A stretch of DNA of 10,149 nucleotides, from the NCBI GenBank assembly GCA_002692165.1, contig NZJL01000003.1:1-10149 (forward strand), given 5' to 3'. This DNA is from Porticoccaceae bacterium. Its GTDB lineage: Bacteria; Pseudomonadota; Gammaproteobacteria; Pseudomonadales; Porticoccaceae. Each line of letters opens with the position of its first letter. Position 1 is the first letter of the stretch. The notes beneath the pieces are model-generated. The model was not told the origin of the DNA and ran no database searches. It saw nothing but the letters and a program-made list of their open reading frames with translations. Below are positions 1-10,149 of this stretch, piece by piece. A program made the position numbers and the translations under genes.

Positions 1-74
1 CCCGTAGTTCAGTTGGATAGAATACGAGTTTCCTAAACTTGGGGTCGGAGGTTCGAATCCTTCCGGGCACGCCA
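1..74 (+). tRNA. tRNA-Arg, anticodon CCU, 5' end cut by window edge
   Basis: The sequence folds as a cloverleaf that lacks only its first three bases. The acceptor 3' strand CGGGCAC (64-70) pairs with the visible CCCG at 1-4, so the missing bases should be GTG. The anticodon stem is CGAGT/ACTTG (25-29 and 37-41) around the loop TTCCTAA, with CCT at 32-34. The T arm is GGAGG-TTCGAAT-CCTTC. The discriminator base is G and the CCA end is encoded at 72-74. It reads AGG arginine codons. AGG is used repeatedly in nearby small genes, for example four of eight Arg codons in the following gene, so it may help translate phage genes in a host where AGG is rare. Confidence 0.93.
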
Positions 75-94
75 AACAGCACATAATTAATTGT

Positions 95-397
95 GTGAAA
101 AGATTCTACTCAGTCAAGTTAAAAGAAAAACAAGAACAGATACCACCATACGTGGCAAAACATCTGTTGAGAAAAGAGTCACCGTTGATAGAATATCTAG
201 CAGAAAACAAAGCATTGAAATTCGTGCATCGCAAAAAGACCAATATACTTGATTGCTATGGTGAAGAAAAATATCTAATGATAGGCAAACTGAAGTATCC
301 TAACATCTGGGGCAGGAAGACCAGGATGGGATTTATGGAACTGTACCTCAACATGAGGATACGGCAACAGATGAGTCTGTCAAGGGGAAGCACATGA
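95..397 (+). CDS. Unknown 100-aa basic protein
   Basis: I do not recognise this protein. It is rich in Lys and Arg, has no signal peptide or membrane segment, and shows no catalytic motif I can name. The start is a GTG 20 bases after the tRNA. No ATG lies upstream in frame before the tRNA and no good Shine-Dalgarno is visible, so the start is uncertain. Its stop overlaps the start of the next gene as ATGA (394-397), the usual sign of translational coupling, which is the best evidence that it is real. AGG codes four of its eight arginines (residues 74, 77, 88 and 97), matching the adjacent tRNA-Arg(CCU). Confidence 0.6.
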   Translation: MKRFYSVKLKEKQEQIPPYVAKHLLRKESPLIEYLAENKALKFVHRKKTNILDCYGEEKYLMIGKLKYPNIWGRKTRMGFMELYLNMRIRQQMSLSRGST

Positions 398-1080
398 AGT
401 ACGGGCCTTATTCCGACAACGACCTAAACACTTTCAAACAGTATCCATTCCGCTGTCCCAAGTGGGATCCAATGCCGGATGGCAAGAAGAATGTTGTCAT
501 ACTGGGTTGCAGTCATGTCTGGGGTGTGGGATTAGAAGAACACGAGACCTGGGCACACCAGGTGAGCCAACACAACACCAATCGATTGAGATACTGGAAC
601 TTGGGTCAGCCTGGTGCCAGTCCAGAGGCAGTGGTTAGAATATTATATTCTTGTGAGAAAGTGCTCCATCCTTCTATTATAATCGTGATGTGGCCAGAGA
701 TGAGCAGGAGGGAAAGATTAGAGTCATACACAAAAAACTTGCTGGGCACACATGAGACCCTCCGATATGAAAATCACAAGACCGACTTGAACAACTTTCT
801 CAAGAGTGTGTTCTTCCTGGAGAAGTATGCCGAGAAGAATCAATGTAAAACCTTCCACTGTTTCTCAGATCACTATCACGATTTCCGCACCGAGGGGAAC
901 TCCCCTGCACTGATGGAGGATTACACACTGCGCAACTGCTGGCCATACTGGGACAAGTTCACCGCACGTGATCTACACTCTAAGCCGAGTCGAGCCGCGG
1001 ATGGTATACACTTTGGCACGGAACACCACAAGCGTTTCGCTGATCTATTCCTGCAGAAATTTGGTCAGAAGTTGAAATAA
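394..1080 (+). CDS. SGNH/GDSL-type hydrolase-like protein
   Basis: This is a 228-aa cytosolic-looking protein with the end blocks of the SGNH hydrolase fold. Block I is GCSHVWGVG (38-46) after a beta strand NVVIL, with Ser40 as the likely nucleophile. The block II glycine is in NLGQPGAS (69-76). Block V is DGIH (203-206), giving the catalytic Asp and His. The block III Asn motif (GxND) is not evident; the corresponding strand IIIVMWPE carries WPE instead, so the oxyanion hole may differ or activity may be altered. The family includes esterases, lipases and carbohydrate O-acetyl esterases. AGGGG lies 6 bases before the ATG and is a good Shine-Dalgarno. The gene overlaps its unknown neighbour by 4 bp and its 3' end overlaps a convergent radical SAM gene by 16 bp. 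O-deacylation of a surface glycan would suit the neighbouring glycosyltransferase and sulfotransferase-like genes, but that is inference. Confidence 0.8.
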   Translation: MKYGPYSDNDLNTFKQYPFRCPKWDPMPDGKKNVVILGCSHVWGVGLEEHETWAHQVSQHNTNRLRYWNLGQPGASPEAVVRILYSCEKVLHPSIIIVMWPEMSRRERLESYTKNLLGTHETLRYENHKTDLNNFLKSVFFLEKYAEKNQCKTFHCFSDHYHDFRTEGNSPALMEDYTLRNCWPYWDKFTARDLHSKPSRAADGIHFGTEHHKRFADLFLQKFGQKLK

Positions 1081-2084
1081 TCATCTATAGATATACTACG
1101 CAACGTATCCTGTCTCTTGATAAAGTATTCAAGCAGTTTGCTGTTGTCTTGATCGACTGCTATCTTTTTTGCTATATCTCTACAAACACTGTAGGAAGAC
1201 TTACTTAATTTTTTTTTAGCACTCACAGTAAACTTATTTTTATACTTTACCTTCAAGGCATCAGGATCATTTAAAAACGCCCAGTTGTGATCCAACCCTT
1301 GTTCTGTTACAAAATCTAATATGCCGGGTAAGTTCTCAACGTTCAAACTGCTTACAGTTGTCCAACAGTTTAATTTCAACAAGGGGTATTGCTTTTGCAA
1401 ATTTTTATATGCGGCAACACTTTTAATGTAGTTCTTCCATTTAATTGGCCAACGCACATAGTCATGCACGTCACCGGTACCATCAAAGCTCAAAGTTACT
1501 ATGACCATTGTTCTGTTTCTAAGTATGCCCTCAAGTTCATTGATCATTCTTGAACCATTGGTGTTCATTCTTACTATTTTTGTGTTAACAGGAAGGTTGG
1601 CTAAAATTTTTTTGTAATTCTTACTTGCGGTGGGTTCGCCTCCGTTGACATCTACTTCCAGTATCCTGTTCTGTGGTAGTTTCCAAAAAGTTTCGTAGTT
1701 GTTCACACGTGTGTATTTCTTTGACTGCAGACTACCTATCTTAGTGCTCAGGCCCGCGTTACAAGACTGACAAGCACTGTTACATATGTTGTCCAACACA
1801 CCCCCAACAACAAGGTAATCATCCTTACGTGGATGTAATATTTTATGTCTGTCTATGCTTTTGGTCCTTACACTTTCTCCGTTTATTTCTTCTGTTTGTT
1901 TACAACGCACACACTCCTCCGGCCACTCGTCCTTTGCCATAGTGTCCTCGAGGTCATTTAGCCATTTGCTTTTGTCTAGTTCGTCGAATGTTTTGAATCC
2001 TACTGCATTTATCATGTGTCCACACTTGCCTATAGAACCATCTTGGTTAAGCCTTACAAAGTGTTTCAGTCTAGGACAATACAT
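1065..2084 (-). CDS. Radical SAM protein, twitch type (N-terminal auxiliary cysteines)
   Basis: This 339-aa protein carries the radical SAM CxxxCxxC motif as CNSACQSC (Cys101, 105 and 108), which binds the [4Fe-4S] cluster that cleaves S-adenosylmethionine. The SAM-binding GGEP is at 148-151, and the strand LSFDG (198-202) is followed by YVRWPIKW, typical of the SPASM/twitch branch. Extra cysteines precede the core (Cys3, 21, 58 and 61) in a pattern like CP...V.L..DGS...C and ECVRC, so an auxiliary Fe-S region sits in front of the barrel rather than behind it. Such enzymes modify proteins, peptides or small metabolites; the substrate here is unknown. Start: ATG with GGAG 7 bases upstream. It overlaps the sulfotransferase-like gene by 14 bp and is last in its transcript. 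Its 3' end overlaps the convergent SGNH gene by 16 bp. Confidence 0.88.
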   Translation of the reverse strand: MYCPRLKHFVRLNQDGSIGKCGHMINAVGFKTFDELDKSKWLNDLEDTMAKDEWPEECVRCKQTEEINGESVRTKSIDRHKILHPRKDDYLVVGGVLDNICNSACQSCNAGLSTKIGSLQSKKYTRVNNYETFWKLPQNRILEVDVNGGEPTASKNYKKILANLPVNTKIVRMNTNGSRMINELEGILRNRTMVIVTLSFDGTGDVHDYVRWPIKWKNYIKSVAAYKNLQKQYPLLKLNCWTTVSSLNVENLPGILDFVTEQGLDHNWAFLNDPDALKVKYKNKFTVSAKKKLSKSSYSVCRDIAKKIAVDQDNSKLLEYFIKRQDTLRSISIDDYFNF

Positions 2085-2604
2085 GTAACAGCTCCGGAAC
2101 TATTTCTGCAAGATTTATTTTCTTATCGATATATTTTTTTAATGGTTCATCAGGTGAGACATATGAGTCAGGCGCTTCTAATTTGAGGTATGAGTACATG
2201 TTCGTATTCAGTTTGGCGGGAGTGTGGTGTGCTACTTGGGAAATATCTTTCAGTGTGATAGGACCCTTATAAAATCTGTAAAGGTGCAAGAGCCACACGG
2301 ACTGGGGACAGAAGTGTCTGTCCAGCATCCTTGATTCCATGATATCTGCTAGTAGTTTATCTTTATCTACATCTGGATTATTGTACAAAACTTCTCCCAC
2401 CCCTGACACAAATCTTTGTCGCTGATTTCTTATATACACGATGATGTTATCAACTTTGCTTACATCATTGTTAATTTTTTCATCTTCTCTCATTAGTATC
2501 AGACTGGTATAAGCATTTTTAAATATTGGATATATCCAGTCGTGTTTAATCTTAATTATTTTACAATCGGTTGTAAACAGTGACATCCAGTGTTTCTTTA
2601 ACAT
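2071..2604 (-). CDS. Sulfotransferase-like protein
   Basis: This 177-aa protein has the two cofactor-binding signatures of PAPS-dependent sulfotransferases. The first is YPIFKNAYTSL (25-35), resembling the 5'-phosphosulfate loop (P-K-N-A-x-T-S). The second is IIVYIRNQRQRFVSG (54-68), resembling the 3'-phosphate motif (R-x-P-x-x-R-x-x-S) with Arg59 and Ser67; the usual Pro is replaced by Gln. DRHFCPQ (95-101) also fits the family's H-x-x-P-Q region. It is shorter than typical sulfotransferases of about 220-300 aa, so it may be a minimal or degenerate member. The likely reaction is transfer of sulfate from PAPS to a hydroxyl on a glycan or other acceptor. The start overlaps the SDR stop by 7 bp and no strong Shine-Dalgarno is seen, suggesting coupled translation. 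The family call rests on motifs only. Confidence 0.6.
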   Translation of the reverse strand: MLKKHWMSLFTTDCKIIKIKHDWIYPIFKNAYTSLILMREDEKINNDVSKVDNIIVYIRNQRQRFVSGVGEVLYNNPDVDKDKLLADIMESRMLDRHFCPQSVWLLHLYRFYKGPITLKDISQVAHHTPAKLNTNMYSYLKLEAPDSYVSPDEPLKKYIDKKINLAEIVPELLHVLS

Positions 2605-3107
2605 GCTTTTAAATCAATCAGAAGATTTTTCACATATTCACGAGCAGTCACACCATCGGGGTGGCTGAAACTTTGAGTCTTAACATTGCCCGGACGAATC
2701 AAAACCATTTTTGTATTACTTGGTTGTGCGTTCAACTGTTCGTGAGCCAGCTCGAGACTCATCTTCCGATTCCTATACTCCATAGACTCTCTCCTAGTGA
2801 GTCCTCTTATATACACATCATTGTTAGACTCACACAACTTGGTGGATATGTTCCAAATTTCATGTTGACTTTTTGAATCGGCCCATCTGTGCCACACCTC
2901 AAACAACAACTCAGTCTGGGCGTACAGGCTTATGGCATTGTTTATGAATAGGTCGCACGGCTCGATTAGGCTTGCCGTGTGAGCGATCCTTCTTATGTTT
3001 TCACCGTCGCTTCTTGATATGCCCACTATCGAGTGTCCCATGTCTTTAAGTTGTTCAGTCAACTCCCGACCGATGCCTCTTTTATGACCTGTGATAGCAA
3101 TTTCCAT
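2598..3107 (-). CDS. Short-chain dehydrogenase/reductase (SDR), short form
   Basis: This is a 169-aa NAD(P)-binding Rossmann protein. The N-terminus MEIAITGHKRGIGRELTEQL has the TGxxxGIG dinucleotide loop (6-13). A DLFINNA segment (52-58) matches the SDR NNAG motif. The active-site pair is Tyr111/Lys115 in YRNRK (YxxxK), with Ser88 in WNIS as the candidate catalytic Ser. RPGNVKT (138-144) matches the PG segment after the active site. It is well below the usual 250 aa, with a compressed middle and C-terminus, so the substrate pocket is small or shared. It probably oxidises or reduces a hydroxyl/keto group, perhaps on a sugar. It is the first gene of a three-gene minus-strand unit with a TTAAATAC box 7 bases before its ATG and no clear Shine-Dalgarno. 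Confidence 0.83.
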   Translation of the reverse strand: MEIAITGHKRGIGRELTEQLKDMGHSIVGISRSDGENIRRIAHTASLIEPCDLFINNAISLYAQTELLFEVWHRWADSKSQHEIWNISTKLCESNNDVYIRGLTRRESMEYRNRKMSLELAHEQLNAQPSNTKMVLIRPGNVKTQSFSHPDGVTAREYVKNLLIDLKAC

Positions 3108-3114
3108 TACAGGC

Positions 3115-3122
3115 GTATTTAA
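3115..3122 (-). promoter_or_regulatory. T4-late-like promoter box TTAAATAC for the SDR unit
   Basis: Read on the minus strand this is TTAAATAC, 7 bases before the ATG of the SDR gene. It resembles the T4 late promoter consensus TATAAATA. The identical octamer with identical spacing faces the opposite way 31 bases further on. Known T4 late promoters have no -35 element, and none is seen here. Confidence 0.5.
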
Positions 3123-3152
3123 TGAATATATTTTTCCTATTTTTTTTTCTAC

Positions 3153-3160
3153 TTAAATAC
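3153..3160 (+). promoter_or_regulatory. T4-late-like promoter box TTAAATAC for the plus-strand radical SAM gene
   Basis: TTAAATAC lies 7 bases before the ATG at 3168, mirroring the box on the other strand at 3115-3122. Together they form a 60-bp divergent promoter region, the rest of which is AT-rich with a T9 run (3140-3148). No Shine-Dalgarno is present between the box and the start. Confidence 0.5.
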
Positions 3161-3167
3161 TTGCTCG

Positions 3168-4274
3168 ATGAATACTCACACCATAGAACCGGCCTATCAT
3201 CCTAGGAGCAAAATGACATTCTTGATCGATTGGTTGGTTACACTGAAGTGCAACTATGATTGTGCGTATTGTGGTATAGGTCCAAGTGGCCATGACAATT
3301 CTAAACCGCACCCTGACTATGACAAGTGTGTCAAAATGGTTTCACAGATGTACGCTTATTGTGATCTAGTACTTGCAAAAAAGAAATTAGTATTCAAGGA
3401 TGCCATCATGAACATCTATGGAGGTGAGAGCATACACCATCCGGATATCGTAAAATTGATCAAAAAAACTTCTGAACTTTATCAGCCTTACAAAAATAAT
3501 TGGAGATTGAAACGTAGAATGACCACAAACGGCACTGCCACAGAAAAAAAGTGGGAGGTGTTGTGTCAGCATGTGGAAGGATTCACAATGAGTTACCACA
3601 GCACGGGTCCAACGAAATTGAAAAACATGTTCAAGCGGAACTTGAAATATCTCAATTCCATAGGGAAGGAGCACGATGTTATTGTGTGCATGTATCCGTC
3701 AAAGGACTATTGGAAAGACTGCGTAAGTTTTCTACACTGGGCAAAAAAACAAGGAATAAATGCCCGACCAAAGATGCTTGATGGACCACTAGGGGTGTAC
3801 AAAAAAGAACACCTCAAGGATTTGGAAGACTTCATAGATTCCAAAGAACTCGCCCACTGGGATGTCTCAGTAACGGCCGAAGTTCAAGGTAGGGGTTGTT
3901 GTGGGGGACGGAGGATGTGTTTCGACAGGAACATCAAGCAACATCAATTTATTGTTCCGCGAGGACCCAACGGTTTCTTGGGATGGCATTGCTCAGCAAA
4001 TCAATTTTTCTTACATGGAAACACATCCACTGGCTTGTATTACACTAACAAGGACTGTAAAGTACGTCTCGATGGTAAGACCGGTCCCATTGCAAATTTA
4101 CACACAATGGGGGATTACATCAAAAGCCTAGCAGAAAAACCACAACTGCCCACGTTAATTTGTGCTCAAAAAACCTGCACCTGTGGTACCTGTGCTCCAA
4201 AAAGTATTCATAAAGAAAACCTCACAGAGATATTGAAAATCTACAACGACCCTAGTCTTGTAGGTAATGTATAG
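3168..4274 (+). CDS. Radical SAM protein with Cys-rich SPASM-like C-terminus
   Basis: This 368-aa protein is the only one of the four radical SAM proteins here with the conventional order. The core comes first with CNYDCAYC (Cys28, 32 and 35). A GGES (85-88) takes the place of GGEP. The C-terminus holds nine cysteines (244, 245, 251, 275, 297, 332, 337, 339 and 342), including the dense ICAQKTCTCGTC, enough to ligate one or two auxiliary Fe-S clusters as in SPASM enzymes. SPASM enzymes typically modify peptides or proteins by cross-links, epimerisation or oxidation, but some act on small molecules; the substrate here is unknown. The gene stands alone on the plus strand with its own promoter box. 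Its last 23 bp overlap the convergent oxygenase-like gene. Start: the ATG directly after the promoter box, without a Shine-Dalgarno. Confidence 0.88.
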   Translation: MNTHTIEPAYHPRSKMTFLIDWLVTLKCNYDCAYCGIGPSGHDNSKPHPDYDKCVKMVSQMYAYCDLVLAKKKLVFKDAIMNIYGGESIHHPDIVKLIKKTSELYQPYKNNWRLKRRMTTNGTATEKKWEVLCQHVEGFTMSYHSTGPTKLKNMFKRNLKYLNSIGKEHDVIVCMYPSKDYWKDCVSFLHWAKKQGINARPKMLDGPLGVYKKEHLKDLEDFIDSKELAHWDVSVTAEVQGRGCCGGRRMCFDRNIKQHQFIVPRGPNGFLGWHCSANQFFLHGNTSTGLYYTNKDCKVRLDGKTGPIANLHTMGDYIKSLAEKPQLPTLICAQKTCTCGTCAPKSIHKENLTEILKIYNDPSLVGNV

Positions 4275-4830
4275 GTTCGTTAAAAAATGTGCATGCCATT
4301 ACCACCCTCGGAAGTTGACATTTGTCACCCAGGATGATGTTGTGTGCTATCTGACTGTTGAAGATCACCGGACTCAGGAGTTCCAGTTCTCCCACCATTT
4401 CTAGTTTTTCATAATCTACGTCTGTGAAGGAGTAATACTTCTTCCCGAATTCGTTTTCGGTGGCACCTACCGAATCAAACATCTCCTTGGGTATTCGATA
4501 CCATCTATTGTAGCTATCCATGGTGTTGTGTATAGGGATATTCATCTTGGCAGTTACCGGCAACTCATCTATGTGTAGCCCAGCGTTGTTTCTTTGGTTT
4601 ATGACAGTCAACGCTACTTCACGTAGTTTGAGACCTAGTTTGTTACAGTAGTCGATCAGTGTTGGGGTAGCACGTACCAACTCCAGGGTGTTCACCTTGT
4701 TCCACAAAGACTCACTGGACAACAGATCTACCCGGTTGTTTTTTATCCATTCCATGACTTGCCGCTGTATCTGTGGCAACGTGTCACATTCCAATTGATG
4801 GTACGGTTTCATTTCAATAATGTTGGGCAT
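4252..4830 (-). CDS. 2OG-Fe(II) oxygenase-like protein
   Basis: This is a 192-aa protein with a plausible double-stranded beta-helix iron site. LHIDE (85-89) supplies the HxD pair His86/Asp88. IFNSQIAHNI (156-165) supplies the distal His163. Arg175 in LPRVVMACTFF is placed to bind the 2-oxoglutarate carboxylate. This is the pattern of 2OG/Fe(II) hydroxylases, including aspartyl/asparaginyl hydroxylase-like proteins. Sequence outside the motifs is not one I can assign to a subfamily. Its start lies inside the upstream radical SAM gene (22-bp overlap). AGGTG lies about 13 bases before the ATG, too far for ideal initiation, so coupled translation is likely. Its 3' end overlaps the convergent plus-strand radical SAM gene by 23 bp. 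It may hydroxylate the product of the paired radical SAM enzyme, or the reverse. Confidence 0.68.
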   Translation of the reverse strand: MPNIIEMKPYHQLECDTLPQIQRQVMEWIKNNRVDLLSSESLWNKVNTLELVRATPTLIDYCNKLGLKLREVALTVINQRNNAGLHIDELPVTAKMNIPIHNTMDSYNRWYRIPKEMFDSVGATENEFGKKYYSFTDVDYEKLEMVGELELLSPVIFNSQIAHNIILGDKCQLPRVVMACTFFNEPIHYLQD

Positions 4831-5831
4831 TCTATGAATCGATCACCTCGCTGTCGCATTCGTTGTTTTACTTTATCTAATTCTCTTTTGTAGTCGTCGT
4901 TGTGCCATATCGATTGTGACTGGAAGTCGTCCATCGTGCCCCAGTCTTCTATCTTGTTGAGCCACACCCGATCAGCGTTGTACCGCTCACCCAGGTCAAT
5001 TATCTCCTGCATCTCATGGAAGTTGTCCTTCTGCACCACGTAGTGCAAGATGAATCTGAATCCGTGTTTGCGTTTCTGTTCCGCCATGCATTCCAGCCCC
5101 TCCAGTATCTTTTCCCACTTGCCTCCGAGCCTCAGTTTTTCGTAGGTTTTTTCTGTCGCCCCGTCTATGCTGACTCCCAGTTCCTTGAGATTCTTGATGA
5201 TGTTGGGCACCCTGCTGTGGAACTCCTTGAACATCAGTCCGTTGGTCAGTATTGAATACTCAATGTTGTCCCGCTCTGGTGTCTGCTCCATGAAGTGCCT
5301 GTACACGTGTGATGCAAATGGATCACCGTCGGATCCTATGTGCACCTGCATCGGGTGTTGGTACCTGTACAGCCAGTCGTTGATCTTGTCAGCCAGTCTA
5401 ATGCCCAGTCGGTACGCGGATCCATCCTTGTGGAATATCATGCTCTTGCGACAGCTCGGACAACGCAGGTTGCAACTGTCGTCTATGGCCAACCTCAGAT
5501 GTCGCACACTGTTGGTGATGTTGCCTTTTAGTTCTTCGAACTTTGGGCTCAAAAGGTAAGAGCATATCTTGTCATTGCAGTATCGATATGTGCCATCATC
5601 TATGGATGACTGCATCTCTCTGCGCATTTTTGACTTCAGTATATCATCGAGTTCCATCACCTGCAGGTTTCCTATGCTCTGTGGCAACCATGACTGACAT
5701 TCACAAGCGTAACATGAGCCTTGTTTGTCAATCAGCAATGTGTCGAATGGCTTAGGGCATCTTGCCTTCATCTTTAGGTCTTTGCCCGTGTCTATGCCAT
5801 AGTGATCGAACAGTCTCTGATTTATCTTCAT
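4809..5831 (-). CDS. Radical SAM protein, twitch type, GC-richer, altered GGEP motif
   Basis: This 340-aa protein has the radical SAM motif CNLRCPSC (Cys120, 124 and 127). The N-terminal auxiliary cysteines are 25, 40, 43, 45, 85 and 90, with a CPKPFDTLLIDKQGSC start like the other two minus-strand radical SAM proteins. VSIDG (220-224) and Y...RLGGKWEKILEGL follow the SPASM/twitch consensus. The SAM-binding GGEP is replaced by GSDGDP (166-171). A lone Cys335 near the C-terminus could be an extra ligand. The gene is visibly GC-richer than its relatives (about 50% in 5041-5100 against about 30% in 7441-7500), suggesting a different origin. Its ATG overlaps the stop of the 58-aa gene as ATGA, and its end overlaps the oxygenase-like gene by 22 bp. 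The substrate is unknown. Confidence 0.87.
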   Translation of the reverse strand: MKINQRLFDHYGIDTGKDLKMKARCPKPFDTLLIDKQGSCYACECQSWLPQSIGNLQVMELDDILKSKMRREMQSSIDDGTYRYCNDKICSYLLSPKFEELKGNITNSVRHLRLAIDDSCNLRCPSCRKSMIFHKDGSAYRLGIRLADKINDWLYRYQHPMQVHIGSDGDPFASHVYRHFMEQTPERDNIEYSILTNGLMFKEFHSRVPNIIKNLKELGVSIDGATEKTYEKLRLGGKWEKILEGLECMAEQKRKHGFRFILHYVVQKDNFHEMQEIIDLGERYNADRVWLNKIEDWGTMDDFQSQSIWHNDDYKRELDKVKQRMRQRGDRFIECPTLLK

Positions 5832-6004
5832 TTGTTGGGATCCGTGATCATGTCCAGAGTCAGCACAACGTCTTCTGGCACAGTGTACCCGTCTTGCTTG
5901 GCAACTGTTGTCTGCTTCCTCTTACGCCTTCGCTCCTCACGTTCCTGTTGCTTCTGCATCTTCTTAGCACCCCTGGTGCTCTTGTAGTCGTAGTGAATGC
6001 CCAT
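5828..6004 (-). CDS. 58-aa highly basic small protein
   Basis: This short frame runs from an ATG at 6004 to TGA at 5828-5830. It begins MGIHYDYKSTRGAKKMQKQQ. Residues 14-36 are a dense Lys/Arg/Gln/Glu stretch likely to form a charged helix that could bind nucleic acid. The tail (38-58) is acidic to neutral: DGYTVPEDVVLTLDMITDPN, then Lys. There are no cysteines. Support for reality: GGGAG lies 7 bases before the ATG, a TATAAAT late-promoter-like box lies directly upstream, and the stop overlaps the next gene's start as ATGA. Three of its six arginines use AGG. It leads the unit containing a radical SAM and an oxygenase-like gene. It could be a regulator, a nucleic-acid binder or, less likely, a peptide substrate. 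I do not recognise it. Confidence 0.78.
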   Translation of the reverse strand: MGIHYDYKSTRGAKKMQKQQEREERRRKRKQTTVAKQDGYTVPEDVVLTLDMITDPNK

Positions 6005-6011
6005 TGTGTTA

Positions 6012-6023
6012 CTCCCATTTATA
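6012..6023 (-). promoter_or_regulatory. Late-promoter-like TATAAAT box and GGGAG Shine-Dalgarno
   Basis: On the minus strand this reads TATAAAT (6023-6017) immediately followed by GGGAG (6016-6012), then 7 bases to the ATG at 6004. The box is the closest match in the window to the T4 late consensus TATAAATA, with G as the last base. At T4 spacing transcription would start inside or just after the GGGAG, so box and Shine-Dalgarno may not both serve the same transcript; read-through from 6088 upstream could use the Shine-Dalgarno. Confidence 0.5.
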
Positions 6024-6053
6024 AAGGTAATTATCGTTCAGGTCAGGCCTGCT

Positions 6054-6113
6054 TTACGCTTTTTAACGCTTCGCGTTATTTCTTAACTTACGCTGTATTT
6101 GGTAATTTACGCT
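6054..6113 (-). repeat. Short AGCGTAA direct repeats
   Basis: Minus-strand AGCGTAA occurs exactly at 6054-6060, 6088-6094 and 6107-6113, with a one-base variant (AGCGTTA) at 6064-6070 inside the hairpin. Two exact copies lie in the last codons of the radical SAM gene, and one of them supplies its TAA stop. The starts are spaced 10, 24 and 19 bases apart, so there is no regular period. Confidence 0.5.
6064..6078. other. Perfect 6-bp hairpin with 3-nt loop after the last gene of the helicase unit
   Basis: TAACGC (6064-6069) and GCGTTA (6073-6078) pair perfectly around TTC. On the minus strand the core is GCGAAGC, a sequence known to form an unusually stable single-stranded DNA mini-hairpin. 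It sits 9 bases past the stop of the radical SAM gene ending at 6088. On that strand it is followed by AAAA, not a T run, so it is not a standard intrinsic terminator; it may protect or process the mRNA 3' end. Confidence 0.45.
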
Positions 6114-7263
6114 CTCGCACTTCTGGCACATCGGGCCATATGTTTGTTATGCTCATATCCCTGTGCTTGTCTTGTTGGTGTGTGATCTTGAGAAAATGAT
6201 GCCAGTGTTTGTTGTGTACATCATCGTTGATACTGTGCAAGTGGTCTGCTATAGCACGTAGTTGAGTTCGTACTTCTGACTTGTCCATGTTCTTTATTGC
6301 ATACATTATGTCTTCTACCGCTCTTACACGTAGGTATCTAGGCAGTACCATTGGAGCATATACCAGAGGAATATTTTCATAAGCAAATCTAAGTTTGTTC
6401 AAATAACCGTTTGATTGTGCCCAGGAAACAAATTTTTTTAAATTGAAGATATTAAAAACTGTGACTGTAAAATTTATATGTGATTGATATTTGTCCATTA
6501 TTTTTTTTGAACTTTCTAGCCATTCTGTCCAAGTACTAGGATATCTTATGTAGTTGTATGTGTCCTGCTCGCCATCGCAACTTATTCCTATGCTATTTGC
6601 TTTAAAAGTTAGAAGAGTAGATTCCCAATTACTCAAGTCTTGTGTACCGTTCGTGGTCCATTTAAGGTCTATATGTTTCCTGTCTTCAACAGGAATACGT
6701 TTAAGAAATTGCAATATTTCTTTGGTCATAAATGGTTCGCCGCCTGTAAACTTTATTCTTTTTACAAATTTTATATTGTCTATAATTTCATCCCATATCT
6801 TGTTAATTTTGTTAGTCTGATAATTTGTATTTTGCCAATCTGGCAATATTGTTTTTGAATTTGTGTCTAGGTAAGGTGTGTTTTGATCTGTCCACCCCAG
6901 TTGTTTCCATTCTGTGGCAAGTTTGCTTGACGACACAGGGTCACACATTTTACAAGCAAGATTGCAAATATTATTAAATTTTATATCAAGCATGGCAGGG
7001 AATCCTCCTTCGCTTTTGTAAGGCTCACTTACTAATCTATAGGAATCATGTCCTAGGTCCTCGATGTTCCAACATGCAGAACAGTAAGAATGACGTGTGC
7101 CACTGTGCAAAGTATTGCTGATTTCTTTTACTGCATCACTGTTGAAAAATTCTCGTATGGTTTGTCCCTCGATGTTTCCCAACGTAGTACCGTAACAACA
7201 GATTCTAAAATTACCGTCAGGTGATATTGTTACGTCCAACGTTGGCCGATTACATTTAGTCAT
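6088..7263 (-). CDS. Radical SAM protein, twitch type (N-terminal auxiliary cysteines)
   Basis: This is a 391-aa protein, the longest of the four radical SAM proteins. The core motif is CNLACKMC (Cys100, 104 and 107), GGEPF is at 174-178, and ISCDG followed by YNYIRYPSTW matches the SPASM/twitch consensus. The N-terminal auxiliary region has Cys4, 22, 23, 61 and 64, with DVTISPDGNFRICC and YCSACW, then an E..G.DSYR segment parallel to the E..GES.R of the radical SAM protein at 1065-2084; these two are likely homologues with the same architecture. Its ATG overlaps the TAA stop of the methyltransferase gene by one base (TAATG). No strong Shine-Dalgarno is present. It closes a five-gene unit headed by the helicase. 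Likely protein, peptide or small-molecule modification; substrate unknown. Confidence 0.89.
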   Translation of the reverse strand: MTKCNRPTLDVTISPDGNFRICCYGTTLGNIEGQTIREFFNSDAVKEISNTLHSGTRHSYCSACWNIEDLGHDSYRLVSEPYKSEGGFPAMLDIKFNNICNLACKMCDPVSSSKLATEWKQLGWTDQNTPYLDTNSKTILPDWQNTNYQTNKINKIWDEIIDNIKFVKRIKFTGGEPFMTKEILQFLKRIPVEDRKHIDLKWTTNGTQDLSNWESTLLTFKANSIGISCDGEQDTYNYIRYPSTWTEWLESSKKIMDKYQSHINFTVTVFNIFNLKKFVSWAQSNGYLNKLRFAYENIPLVYAPMVLPRYLRVRAVEDIMYAIKNMDKSEVRTQLRAIADHLHSINDDVHNKHWHHFLKITHQQDKHRDMSITNIWPDVPEVRERKLPNTA

Positions 7264-7886
7264 TACAAATTTTTTACTATGTCTTCTACTGCTTTGTTGT
7301 ATGCACCTTTTTTCTTTTTGACATATCGTATTTTATGTCCCAGGAACTCACCAGATTCTGTTGCTAGTGTGCAAGGAGTAGGTTCGCCACAAATAATCAT
7401 ACCATCGACATAATATTGTGGTGTAATTTTTTTGTCTTTTATACCATCTAATATAATAGAAAATCTTTGTAGACAGTTTGTTGATGATAAGTCCAGTGCT
7501 ACCCATTTTACATTAGATTGAATTAATTTTTCATAGTCTGGTCGGAAATGGTCAATGTCTGCTTGAGAAAAAATAACAAAGTCGTGCTGTGTCCAATTAT
7601 ACACATGGCTACTTTCTAATATGGTGTGAATTCTATCACTATCTCCAACAGTTTTTTTTACTGCTTTTAAAAAAGGTTGTCTGAATGCTTCTGGTAAAAA
7701 TGCATAGTTGTCTAGCAAATATAATTCCTTGTCAGAAACTTTAATTGCTTTCCACACTGCTCTTCCAACACTTCCGGCAAAACAACCTATGTCGCAAATA
7801 GATTTTGCCTTTGATCGATATATGATATTTCCCAAGTAATCAAATTGCCTCTGTGTGAATTGTTGCCATATGTTTTCTAGTTTCAT
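7263..7886 (-). CDS. Class I SAM-dependent methyltransferase-like protein
   Basis: This 207-aa protein has a Rossmann methyltransferase start. After the strand KSI, motif I reads CDIGCFAGSVGRAVW (31-45), close to the D/E-x-G-x-x-x-G-x-x-G consensus for SAM binding. An acidic residue ends the second strand in LYLLDNYAF (Asp59), where SAM ribose hydroxyls are held. HDFVIFSQADIDHF likely forms strand 4 and its loop. The C-terminus is Lys-rich (RYVKKKKG). The acceptor is unknown; context suggests a sugar, lipid or peptide within the same modification pathway. The start overlaps the upstream gene's stop as ATGA, with AGGA 8 bases upstream, a good Shine-Dalgarno. The gene is AT-rich, about 30% GC in 7441-7500. 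Confidence 0.78.
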   Translation of the reverse strand: MKLENIWQQFTQRQFDYLGNIIYRSKAKSICDIGCFAGSVGRAVWKAIKVSDKELYLLDNYAFLPEAFRQPFLKAVKKTVGDSDRIHTILESSHVYNWTQHDFVIFSQADIDHFRPDYEKLIQSNVKWVALDLSSTNCLQRFSIILDGIKDKKITPQYYVDGMIICGEPTPCTLATESGEFLGHKIRYVKKKKGAYNKAVEDIVKNL

Positions 7887-8473
7887 GATTCAAGTCCTGT
7901 AACTTTGATTATGTATCTGTCTCTGTTGCTGTTGTTCTTTGTGTGGTGCACACCACGCCACACGTTTAATGATATGACATCACCTTGTTTCCACTTCCAC
8001 TGCACGTCGTTGATGGTAAAATTTTGTCCGTCCACTTGATCTTCCACACCTATGAAATAACGCCTTGCCTTAAGTTTAGGATTAGGATCCTTCATGGAGT
8101 GTTCCATGTCTGCTAGGTGGGGTTCATGTTGCACCCAGGATTTGATCTGACCATGCAGTGTGTCAATATGCGGGTCGACTTTGTCGCCTGGTTTCTGTAG
8201 TTGCACATAGGTCTGTTTGTACCTCAACTCTGGAAAAGTTTTGTCTGCCCACGTGTCCAACAACGGGTGTCTTCCATATGTGTAGACATTTTCGAGGTCC
8301 TTGCCGTCAGCTCTTGGTTGTGTGGTGATCTTCTTTATGAAATCTAGTGAGGGCAATCGAACGTTGCCTTTGTGTTCGAAACCTTCTTGTGAAACATCAG
8401 CGTACTCTACTGTGTCTCTGTAATAGTCGAATTGGTTTGAATCTAACCAATTTAAATATTCGGATAATTTCAT
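7883..8473 (-). CDS. 2OG-Fe(II) oxygenase-like protein
   Basis: This 196-aa protein has the facial triad of an Fe(II)/2-oxoglutarate oxygenase. HIDT gives His102/Asp104 after the strand YVQLQKPGDKVDP. GDVISLNVWRGVHHTKN supplies the distal His176 or His177. Arg186 in NRDRYIIKVTG is suited to bind 2-oxoglutarate. The layout (YVQL..PGD.V.PHID, later W..GD...LN.WRGVHHT) resembles aspartyl/asparaginyl hydroxylase-like cupin-fold enzymes. It does not look like a close copy of the other oxygenase-like protein at 4252-4830: the spacing from HxD to distal His is similar but flanking residues differ. It may hydroxylate a protein side chain or small molecule. A TTAAATAC box sits 5 bases before the ATG, overlapping the stop of the glycosyltransferase gene. 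Confidence 0.78.
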   Translation of the reverse strand: MKLSEYLNWLDSNQFDYYRDTVEYADVSQEGFEHKGNVRLPSLDFIKKITTQPRADGKDLENVYTYGRHPLLDTWADKTFPELRYKQTYVQLQKPGDKVDPHIDTLHGQIKSWVQHEPHLADMEHSMKDPNPKLKARRYFIGVEDQVDGQNFTINDVQWKWKQGDVISLNVWRGVHHTKNNSNRDRYIIKVTGLES

Positions 8474-8478
8474 ACCCA

Positions 8479-8486
8479 GTATTTAA
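8479..8486 (-). promoter_or_regulatory. T4-late-like promoter box TTAAATAC, internal
   Basis: On the minus strand TTAAATAC begins within the TAA stop region of the glycosyltransferase gene and ends 5 bases before the ATG at 8473. It is the third copy of this octamer in the window; all three face and closely precede a start codon. It would allow the oxygenase, methyltransferase and radical SAM genes to be expressed separately from the helicase. Confidence 0.45.
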
Positions 8487-9208
8487 ACTTTATTTTTATC
8501 CAGAAAAGAATTTATGCTATGGTACTGTGTTGATTTTTTGTGCCCCGCGGCATGAAAGAAATGCACAGGCGGTTTACCTCCAAAGTGAGCATTTTTATAA
8601 TTGAACAGTCTGGTCATTCGTGTTATTGGCACACCGCTTTTGATTGTGGACCATAACAGGATGTGCCCATCGTGATCGTTCAATTCTTTGTATTTTGCAA
8701 TGTACCTTTTCATTATGTCTCTTGCTTTTTTAGTAACAATAAAAACACCGGCTTGGAAGCCGCACCGCTTCACTTGTTCTAGTAAGCATTCTTTTAGTAT
8801 ACCGTGATAGATATGTTTTATCTGTGCCTCACTTTCTGCTTTTTGGAATCCTGGATGTTCGCAAACCTTCAACGTATTTTGGTCAGGATACTCTGCAAAT
8901 ATATCTGGTGCATCTGGCATGGCGAATACATCACTGTCCACGTACATAATTTCGTCATACTTTTCCCACCAAGAATCATCTAGCCATAAGTCAAATCTTT
9001 CGAATGTAGGATGTTTATAATTTAATTTCTTTTCTGTGACTCTTACAAAGTCGTGATTGTATTTGTTTGCATATGTTTCAAAACTTCTAGCACTGCGATC
9101 GGCAAACTCGTCTGCATCGAACTCTTCGCTTTTCTTCAAGAGTGCGTTGTAGTCAGGTTCGCTATACTGGTCTGCTTGTATCCAGTATTGAACTATACAT
9201 TTTTTCAC
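8483..9208 (-). CDS. Glycosyltransferase-like protein (GT-A, DxD)
   Basis: This 241-aa protein has a GT-A nucleotide-sugar transferase pattern. KYDEIMYVDSDVFAMP (83-98) carries the DxD metal-binding motif Asp91-Ser-Asp93 after a hydrophobic strand, as in GT8-like and related families. Later come GFQAGVFIV (150-158), a typical acceptor-side segment, NDHDGHILLW (177-186) with acidic residues, and HFFHAAGHK (216-224), where a His often completes metal binding. There are no membrane segments, so it is likely cytosolic. The start is GTG, sharing a base with the helicase stop (TAGTG); GAAGAA about 5 bases upstream is a weak Shine-Dalgarno. The donor sugar and acceptor are unknown: a surface glycan, phage DNA or protein are all possible. 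Glucosylation of DNA is a known T4 strategy, but this protein does not resemble T4 alpha- or beta-glucosyltransferase by eye. Confidence 0.78.
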   Translation of the reverse strand: MKKCIVQYWIQADQYSEPDYNALLKKSEEFDADEFADRSARSFETYANKYNHDFVRVTEKKLNYKHPTFERFDLWLDDSWWEKYDEIMYVDSDVFAMPDAPDIFAEYPDQNTLKVCEHPGFQKAESEAQIKHIYHGILKECLLEQVKRCGFQAGVFIVTKKARDIMKRYIAKYKELNDHDGHILLWSTIKSGVPITRMTRLFNYKNAHFGGKPPVHFFHAAGHKKSTQYHSINSFLDKNKV

Positions 9209-10149
9209 TACTGTTCTTCGTCTGAGTGTAATTCGTTTAGCAACTGTCTCAGTTTTCCACCTTCGACAGTACCCTTCACTTTACCTAACGGATCACCCTT
9301 CCGTGGATCCGGAACTTCAGGTGTGTCACTGCCGGATACTTTTGATGTTTGCTTTAACGAATCGTATATTTTATTTTTACTTTGCTGATTATAACTTTGT
9401 GCTTCTTCCTCATTTAGGTCTCTTATTCTTAAACTATCTACATCAAATTCTAAATCTACTTTTTGTCCCACTCCACTACTACTTCTAGTTTTCATGAATT
9501 GTATCTGATATCTGCCACGTTCCTTCATAGCCCTGCTCGTGAATATACCTATCACGTTGTCTGCTGTCTGTATCTTCGACAGTCCACCTGATATGTGAGA
9601 GTGATCAAACTCTATCTCTTCTACCGATGCCCTATTCAACTGTGATGCTGTTGCCAGTATACATTGTTTTTCCACAACCAGGTTCCTCAATTCCTCAGAA
9701 ACATATTTGTCTTTTATAAACAAATCTGCTGGTGATATTCTTTTGCTCTTTGGCATCATCAAATCCAAATAGTCAATTAATATACAGTCTATTTTCTTTT
9801 TGTTTTTTAGTTCTAATTCTTTTAGATAAGTTCTTATGTCCAAAACAGTGCTACCACTTGGCAAGTATTTTATTTGCAAGTCTCCTGATTTCTTCTTCAA
9901 CATTTTTACTTTCATCTCCACGTTTTCTATTTCAGGAAATACTTTACGTGTTGGAATGTTAGTCATCATAGCATCTAATCTCATAGCAGTGAGCTGTTCG
10001 CTCAATTCACAAGATATGTAACAAACGTTCAAGCCAGCAGTGGCCCAGTTGACTGCAAGATTCTGCAAGAACAAACTCTTACCTGCGCCTGATCCACCTG
10101 CAAAGATGTTTAGTTCTCCTCGGTTGAATCCACCGAATAGTTTCTTGTC
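9208..10149 (-). CDS. DnaB/gp41-like replicative helicase, 5' end cut by window edge
   Basis: The open frame runs off the right edge, so only the C-terminal 313 residues are present; the TTG at 10074 is an internal Leu, not the start. The visible protein begins DKKLFGGFNRGELNIFAGG and has Walker A GGSGAGKS (18-25), the catalytic Glu in SCELSEQ (near 48), Walker B CILIDYLDL (122-130), motif H3 ATASQLNRAS (166-175), motif H4 HISGGLSKIQTADNVIGI, and KTRSSSGVGQ near 220 with the candidate arginine finger. These are the RecA-fold motifs of hexameric replicative helicases such as DnaB and T4 gp41, which unwind the phage replication fork using NTP. The tail of about 70 residues is acidic and low complexity. 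The gene heads a unit that continues straight into the glycosyltransferase gene. Confidence 0.9.
   Translation of the reverse strand, partial: DKKLFGGFNRGELNIFAGGSGAGKSLFLQNLAVNWATAGLNVCYISCELSEQLTAMRLDAMMTNIPTRKVFPEIENVEMKVKMLKKKSGDLQIKYLPSGSTVLDIRTYLKELELKNKKKIDCILIDYLDLMMPKSKRISPADLFIKDKYVSEELRNLVVEKQCILATASQLNRASVEEIEFDHSHISGGLSKIQTADNVIGIFTSRAMKERGRYQIQFMKTRSSSGVGQKVDLEFDVDSLRIRDLNEEEAQSYNQQSKNKIYDSLKQTSKVSGSDTPEVPDPRKGDPLGKVKGTVEGGKLRQLLNELHSDEEQ

Follow-up and report, generated by a model that had tools for sequence, protein, structure and literature searches.

Genes of the island

We analyzed a stretch of 10,149 nucleotides (nt) filed under a Porticoccaceae bacterium (contig NZJL01000003.1; hereafter the window), in which modifying enzymes, four of them radical S-adenosylmethionine (SAM) proteins, are crowded between a hydrolase gene and a phage-type replicative helicase, and in which a sulfotransferase-like gene (ST) and a radical SAM gene (rSAM_A) form the core of a cassette. 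The window is the entire contig, filed in a 1.7-Mb metagenome-assembled genome (MAG) of 112 contigs and 78% completeness. Its helicase (DnaB_C match, E 4.9e-20) is 60% identical, across 90% of its length, to that of the Pseudomonas jumbo phage PA5oct (Arenbergviridae), and relatives of it are encoded by 599 IMG/VR stretches (63–96% identity among the 80 kept). Because of this likeness to PA5oct the contig looks like phage DNA, and judged by its sequence its most plausible reading is that of a phage contig put into a bacterial bin; by the same kinship the phage would be jumbo-sized. Users of this MAG could wrongly assign these enzymes to the bacterium. The initial annotation, made from the letters alone, had described a dense modifying-enzyme island (1065–9208) beside a phage helicase, and all of its reading frames are indeed at the positions given there; the island is also beyond chance, the same genes recurring in the same order across many contigs. 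The window further holds a gene for a 58-amino-acid (aa) protein, a hairpin element, promoter-like motifs and an edge-cut tRNA, which that annotation did not list. The genes are given below, with SDR for short-chain dehydrogenase/reductase and 2OG for 2-oxoglutarate.

95..397, plus strand: orf100, small gene beside the SGNH gene; no known family, homologues in relatives
394..1080, plus strand: SGNH/GDSL-like hydrolase, convergent with rSAM_A; borders the constant frame
1065..2084, minus strand: rSAM_A, radical SAM protein with an N-terminal twitch-like Cys region; cassette core
2071..2604, minus strand: ST (unk177), small protein of predicted sulfotransferase fold, 177 aa; cassette core
2598..3107, minus strand: short SDR of 169 aa that opens the SDR-ST-rSAM_A run
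3168..4274, plus strand: rSAM_B, radical SAM protein with a Cys-rich C-terminal part; optional cassette member
4252..4830, minus strand: ox192, protein of predicted 2OG-Fe(II)-oxygenase fold, 192 aa; cassette member in both architectures
4809..5831, minus strand: rSAM_C, radical SAM protein with an N-terminal SPASM-like region; borders the cassette site
5828..6004, minus strand: 58-aa basic protein with conserved ends; overlaps the rSAM_C start by 4 nt
6088..7263, minus strand: rSAM_D, N_Twi_rSAM; cargo
7263..7886, minus strand: MT207, class I methyltransferase-like (DxGxxxG), 207 aa; paired with 2OG196; cargo
7883..8473, minus strand: 2OG196, 2OG-oxygenase-like by its HID motif only; cargo
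8483..9208, minus strand: GT8-like glycosyltransferase (GT); cargo
9208..10149, minus strand: DnaB-like (gp41-type) replicative helicase, truncated at its 5' end by the contig edge; other border of the island

All four proteins that had been taken for radical SAM enzymes carry CxxxCxxC (CNSACQSC, CNYDCAYC, CNLRCPSC and CNLACKMC) and belong to the superfamily, and the motif is conserved in the alignments of rSAM_A and of rSAM_C. The Pfam Radical_SAM cut-off is passed by rSAM_C (E 4e-11), which also matches SPASM (E 1.3e-4), and by rSAM_D; rSAM_B stays slightly under it (E 5.6e-6, 27.1 bits, cut-off 29.5), and rSAM_A has no Pfam Radical_SAM match. Against the NCBIfam model N_Twi_rSAM (NF033640, cut-off 170 bits), rSAM_D scores 250.3 bits (E 3.5e-74), whereas rSAM_A, at 132.1 bits, fails the cut-off yet aligns over nearly the full length of the model (positions 9–379 of 398).

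The protein called sulfotransferase-like in the initial annotation has a predicted sulfotransferase fold, as comparisons of its AF2 model (AlphaFold2; predicted local distance difference test 91.2) by VIA-align and BFVD show: rows 1–15 of VIA-align are all sulfotransferases with moderate scores, and the best BFVD match is 'Sulfotransferase family'. Foldseek against the PDB gave a best match of only E 0.39, and a sequence search of the PDB gave chance matches only. The ST of the window has no Pfam sulfotransferase match, and among 12 family members one or two matched such models (E 0.013–0.021). The top structural matches are heparan-sulfate 3-O-sulfotransferases, which are longer (~250–270 aa against 177 aa) and 9–17% identical to ST (rows 1–15); a PSB-loop-like lysine and an R-x7-S motif were read by eye against the motifs of such enzymes. 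ST would be expected to use 3'-phosphoadenosine 5'-phosphosulfate (PAPS) as its sulfate donor.

The other enzymes are recognised to differing degrees. Of the two 2OG-Fe oxygenase-like genes proposed earlier, ox192 is predicted to adopt the double-stranded beta-helix fold; of the HxD...H iron triad and Arg typical of such enzymes, H86, H163 and R175 are invariant in 28 sequences and the Asp is present in the window and replaced in L274, L291, L271 and L161, and a sequence search of the PDB with it gave no match; 2OG196 is recognised by HID and has no Pfam match. MT207 is methyltransferase-like by its motif: a scan of 38 proteins, mainly from five window families, matched Methyltransf_24 once and weakly (E 0.0013) and oxygenase families not at all. 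The SDR carries GxxxGxG and YxxxK and passes the Epimerase model (21.7 bits, cut-off 20.9), and the SGNH hydrolase carries GxSxxxG and DxxH with a weak Lipase_GDSL match. DxD is present in the glycosyltransferase, whose Glyco_transf_8 match (E 0.0037) lies under the cut-off. The overlaps that had been noted on the minus strand are real and amount to 14 nt for rSAM_A/ST, 22 nt for rSAM_C/ox192 and 1 nt for rSAM_D/MT207.

A layered island and a cassette at two genome positions

We collected loci with the helicase, rSAM_A and rSAM_C as queries and kept near-identical contigs (68 distinct rSAM_C among 80 loci, 66 distinct rSAM_A among 81 rows). The relatives show three layers and not one fixed eleven-gene pathway. 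The first is a constant frame of helicase, rSAM_C, SGNH and tRNAs, in which the helicase lies upstream of rSAM_C in 75 of the 80 loci, and in 65 of the 67 loci whose upstream sequence exceeds 8 kb. The second is swappable cargo after the helicase, comprising methyl-, sulfo- and nucleotidyltransferases, radical SAM proteins, and porin-like and solute-binding proteins. The third is a cassette at the rSAM_C/SGNH junction, ordered oxygenase/rSAM_B - SDR - (rSAM_E) - ST - rSAM_A, where rSAM_E is a further radical SAM gene. In the 46 loci with more than 5 kb downstream of rSAM_C, that sequence holds SGNH in 43, SDR in 30, ST in 30, rSAM_A in 29, ox192 in 20, rSAM_E in 13 and rSAM_B in 9. Among the 59 loci with rSAM_C and a downstream SGNH gene, the two are adjacent in 26 (from a 17-nt overlap to a 2-nt gap) and separated by other genes in 33, 31 of which end with rSAM_A; the junction is therefore a natural empty site that may be filled by a cassette.

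The cargo between helicase and rSAM_C is highly mixed, with 103 clusters from 543 open reading frames (ORFs; duplicate records included). Among the 99 cluster representatives scanned (four short ones were omitted, and the figures come from 25 of 57 families), we found FkbM methyltransferase (10), Sulfotransfer_2 (6), Radical_SAM (6), DctP (3), NTP_transferase (3), TctA (2) and TylF (2), together with single matches to RuBisCO-like, RraA, porin, TauD, Thy1 and DNA polymerase III families. GT, rSAM_D and the 2OG196-MT207 pair of the window are exchangeable cargo of this kind, and the last is a second pair, adjacent in 8/8 loci holding MT207 (2OG196 occurs in 10 loci). Porin-like genes lie upstream of rSAM_C in 37/80 loci, often on the opposite strand, and the window has none; the label is based on L009:14726-15664 and L018:8304-9401 (Porin_1 E 1.7e-9, Porin_4 E 1.4e-34), and the representative of the largest porin-like cluster has no Pfam match at E 0.001. 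In L083, the closest relative of the window, a gene for a solute-binding protein of the DctP type (tripartite ATP-independent periplasmic transporter; L083:3644-4567, E 1.1e-31) lies between GT and 2OG. Several relatives have a 563-aa DNA polymerase III alpha-like fragment after the helicase and an HhH-GPD glycosylase-like gene (L008:11688-13379), and a nucleotidyltransferase gene adjoining one for a RuBisCO-like protein (L087:5686-7720) recurs in the cargo of several loci, possibly as a phage sugar-acid pathway.

The ST-rSAM_A pair itself is nearly constant. After four duplicate records had been dropped, ST lies directly upstream of rSAM_A in 80 of 82 rSAM_A loci; the two others are L143, where rSAM_A begins 203 nt from the contig end, and L100, where no ST was recognised before rSAM_A. 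An SDR gene lies within five genes upstream or three downstream of rSAM_A in 70/82, rSAM_E is near in 53/82, and ST and rSAM_A overlap by 14–32 nt in 74 of 84 pairs, as judged from first-start ORF calls. In 46 of the 82 loci the cassette lies outside the rSAM_C/SGNH frame, gp32 being present in 43 and UvsX in 41 of these, and the usual order at this second position, in other T4-like phages, is gp32 - ST - rSAM_A - (ox192) - SDR - rSAM_E - UvsX - small gene - UvsY. This class includes L086 by default, as a locus with no SGNH or rSAM_C, and neither gp32 nor UvsX, in its available sequence. An HldE-like gene occurs in 14 of the 46. The MetK and GT labels in this architecture were given by reading (PHROGs 1569 and 28018 are nameless). 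A SAM-synthetase-like gene after UvsY in 4/46 loci (two near-identical pairs; e.g. L137:13560-14660) would match the SAM demand of the radical SAM genes. Of fifteen longer virus records searched whole, seven encode a complete rSAM_A, each in a single copy (E 1e-138 or better). A tree of 81 rSAM_A proteins requires the architecture label to change three times, two of the changes being forced by supported branches (L086 carries its label by default).

These data divide the earlier proposal that the island encodes one pathway. The linkage of ST, rSAM_A and SDR, together with the two genome positions, supports a shared pathway for those genes, whereas a single pathway of eleven enzymes is unsupported, because GT, rSAM_D and the 2OG-MT cargo are exchangeable and rSAM_C-SGNH occurs with no cassette in 26/59 loci. 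The proposed test, whether the set co-occurs beside the helicase in related phages, came out in the same divided way: the helicase is upstream of rSAM_C in most loci, and the gp32/UvsX position shows that this neighbourhood is not general. One could go further and suppose that there is no joint pathway, that the hotspot gathers unrelated useful genes, and that ST and rSAM_A stay together only because their overlap is costly to separate. The mixed cargo, in which genes swap singly, and the empty junctions are as this explanation would have them, as is the presence of ST-rSAM_A with neither SDR nor rSAM_E in 10/46 gp32/UvsX loci. It nevertheless fits poorly with a cassette set retained across two genome positions and despite changes of order, since SDR precedes ST-rSAM_A in one architecture and trails the pair in the second, with yet another order in L139 and L140. 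We regard this explanation as unlikely, if the least unlikely of the alternatives weighed here.

Swapping is visible between the window and L083. Identity is 93–97% across the helicase end and GT, 92–97% across rSAM_D and the hairpin element and 95–99% across rSAM_A; it falls to 81–89% across the upstream helicase half and to 56–78% across 2OG, MT, rSAM_C, SDR, ST and SGNH, and blastn finds no match from 3109 to 4930, the region of rSAM_B and ox192. In this pair rSAM_A is 98% identical against 46% for ST, and two further locus pairs show a similar contrast. Across loci ST is the more variable (median identity 29% vs 51% for rSAM_A), and the similarities of the two proteins correlate (r 0.69, Mantel p 0.001). 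A fixed catalytic partner, rSAM_A, and a changing acceptor-facing partner, ST, would fit this pattern.

rSAM_A has 436 matches in IMG/VR viral stretches, and these phages are presumably marine, to judge from IMG sample numbers and published work. Among 398 genomes of the window's phylum, a search at E 1e-30 returned the window's own contig alone, and a scan of 84,980 species genomes, limited by its two short patterns, gave 10 stretches that fit the rSAM_A pattern, none of them a relative. No match to rSAM_A, ST or rSAM_C of the window was found in 50,697 cultured-phage records; a gp32/UvsX-type query aligned with 14 records of KVP40-like Vibrio phages (39% coverage, 30% identity), and rSAM_E matched at 22% in 3 Vibrio phages. 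A protein-database search gave at least 3,582 rSAM_A matches at E 0.001 among 7,999 candidates scored, and the 120 matches listed are 55–99% identical and lie on contigs whose host is not stated. As far as these sequence searches reach, the ST-rSAM_A pair would thus be confined to viruses and metagenomes, with distant or unsampled cellular forms possible. rSAM_C does have cellular relatives, at 25–33% identity (95 stretches, 79 loci kept). We considered their neighbourhoods as a guide to function and mapped 20 of the 79 (one had no central ORF); this line was dropped, the relatives being distant and ORF calling poor in G+C-rich genomes.

Promoter-like motif, hairpin element and tRNAs

Besides its genes, the window carries the following features.

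3115..3122, minus strand: promoter-like TTAAATAC before SDR
3153..3160, plus strand: promoter-like TTAAATAC before rSAM_B
8479..8486, minus strand: promoter-like TTAAATAC before 2OG196
6026..6086, minus strand: conserved intergenic hairpin element of 61 nt at the cargo/core boundary; stem 6065-6077
1..71, plus strand: tRNA cut at its 5' end by the contig edge (Rfam tRNA, 50.6 bits); anticodon CCT (Arg) by reading; first of a tRNA group that borders the island

The general form of the motif, T[TA]AAATA[CT], resembles the T4 late promoter. Of the 201 genes with a copy between -60 and +40, 136 have it starting 6–15 nt before the called start codon; within genes it is scarce (0.029 per 100 nt). 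It is frequent at SDR (19/30), rSAM_B (5/10), MT207 (4/6), 2OG196 (4/7), ox192 (9/22) and SGNH (10/49), and scarce at ST (2/31), rSAM_A (2/31), rSAM_C (4/69), the 58-aa gene (3/33) and the helicase (6/53). Being common at SDR and rare at ST and rSAM_A, it marks SDR as the head of the SDR-(E)-ST-rSAM_A run. The motif lies very near start codons, with no obvious ribosome-binding site in the cases read, and leaderless transcripts are possible at these genes.

The hairpin element has matches of 22–61 nt and 90–100% identity in 48/239 viral loci (E 0.01, duplicates included), nearly always at the cargo/core boundary and with neighbours that differ among loci, and paired changes in its stem were read by eye. 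It has no Rfam match, and may serve as a terminator in both directions or as an anchor for recombination. ARAGORN found no tRNA in the window, and it found tRNA groups of varying content at the matching place beside the island in all 6 relatives scanned.

Proposed function and comparison with known phages

Our preferred reading, to which we give a probability of about 0.47, is that the window belongs to an uncultured relative of PA5oct, in which it forms a gene-swapping island, and that its cassette remodels a glycan of the envelope or the virion. The cassette would consist of the ST-rSAM_A core with the short SDR, the 2OG oxygenase and, optionally, more radical SAM enzymes, and together with neighbouring cargo it would tailor a sugar: carbons of the sugar or of its nucleotide form would be altered by the radical SAM, oxygenase and SDR enzymes, its addition or capping would fall to glycosyl- and methyltransferases, and ST would contribute a sulfate taken from host PAPS. 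The resulting envelope or virion glycan may aid against co-infecting phages or change virion properties. A glycan is favoured because the cargo is of the sugar type, because ST is structurally akin to carbohydrate sulfotransferases, and because the exchangeable genes include porin-like and solute-binding proteins. The initial annotation had left surface glycan and protein modification side by side; the cargo leans towards the glycan and does not decide the matter. One result weighs against the preferred reading: a relaxed version of the promoter-like motif precedes 4/12 structural or packaging genes of PA5oct and 2/8 others, including UvsX, and does not separate the two classes. Late expression of the cassette is therefore kept as a supposition, and we lowered the probability of the reading from 0.50 to the value above.

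The island might alternatively modify a protein or peptide, either the side chain of a virion protein or a short precursor, for instance the 58-aa protein, in the manner of ribosomally synthesized and post-translationally modified peptides (RiPPs), with radical SAM, hydroxylase, methyltransferase and sulfation steps. Radical SAM enzymes of the twitch/SPASM type often act on peptides, among solved structures the best relative found for rSAM_A is SkfB, a sporulation-killing-factor maturase, and the 58-aa gene, which overlaps rSAM_C in the window, lies within three genes upstream of it in 33/80 loci. Yet that gene went undetected close upstream in the other 47 and is in none of the 46 gp32/UvsX maps, its product varies in the middle between conserved ends, we recognised no protease or exporter, and the cargo indicates sugar nucleotides. 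We dropped the 58-aa protein as a RiPP precursor on account of its conservation pattern and its many undetected cases, and keep it only within this explanation, which we find improbable and rank below an absence of any joint pathway.

Least likely of all, in our judgement, is a hypermodification of DNA or nucleotides that guards phage DNA against host nucleases. Both positions of the cassette lie within replication or recombination blocks, after a gp41-type helicase and between gp32 and UvsX, and phage DNA modification is known to involve oxygenases and glycosyltransferases. On the other hand, we recognised no known nucleotide-modifying enzyme among the families listed (for the cargo, 25 of 57), and the cargo consists mostly of methyl-, sulfo- and nucleotidyltransferases and envelope-type genes.

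We put forward more hesitantly a further proposal: ST and rSAM_A may be a virus-invented two-enzyme unit for a modification that is not known in cells, for example a radical-rearranged sulfated sugar, and may move as a cassette between large T4-like phages that retain it because it affects infection. The pair is an overlapping one with two genome positions, natural filled and empty sites, and no orthologue in the cellular genomes searched. Because the genes overlap and filled and empty versions of the site occur, the question of the product is testable with two purified proteins. A surface sugar would be a new phage tool for altering the host envelope; a modification of DNA, a peptide or a metabolite would be new chemistry.

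Radical SAM islands of phages are already known as a general kind. The passages concerned describe radical SAM genes as common in marine phages and give no tested function for them (PMC5332604, PMC7150976), and marine viral samples are described as enriched in radical SAM, methyltransferase and glycosyltransferase genes (PMC7150976). Pelagimyophages are described with hypervariable islands that hold GT8 genes and radical SAM cassettes, for which the authors propose a change of the O-chain against co-infection (PMC7029224). Their island lies between VrlC and gp14, whereas ours follows the helicase or lies between gp32 and UvsX; with that post-helicase site and no tail-fibre family recognised in it, the present island is not a host-recognition island of the pelagimyophage type, and the main text of PMC7029224 uses neither 'sulfotransferase' nor 'porin'. 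The T4-like genome TARA_ERS488813_N000010, with 12 radical SAM genes, is similar as a marine T4-like genome rich in such genes and in Fe-S related ones, and differs in that these are given there as a gene count and that the word 'sulfotransferase' is absent from the main text (PMC5332604). In the open-access literature we found no report of a phage cassette that couples a sulfotransferase to a radical SAM enzyme. Among cultured phages, PA5oct (NC_071039) differs in having mostly structural genes after its helicase, and 0/37 features of its block, many of them 'hypothetical', are annotated as radical SAM or sulfotransferase; it is like our phages in holding TerL, UvsX, primase and helicase in one block, and is the closest cultured relative both of the helicase (60%) and of the terminase of the gp32/UvsX architecture (52%).

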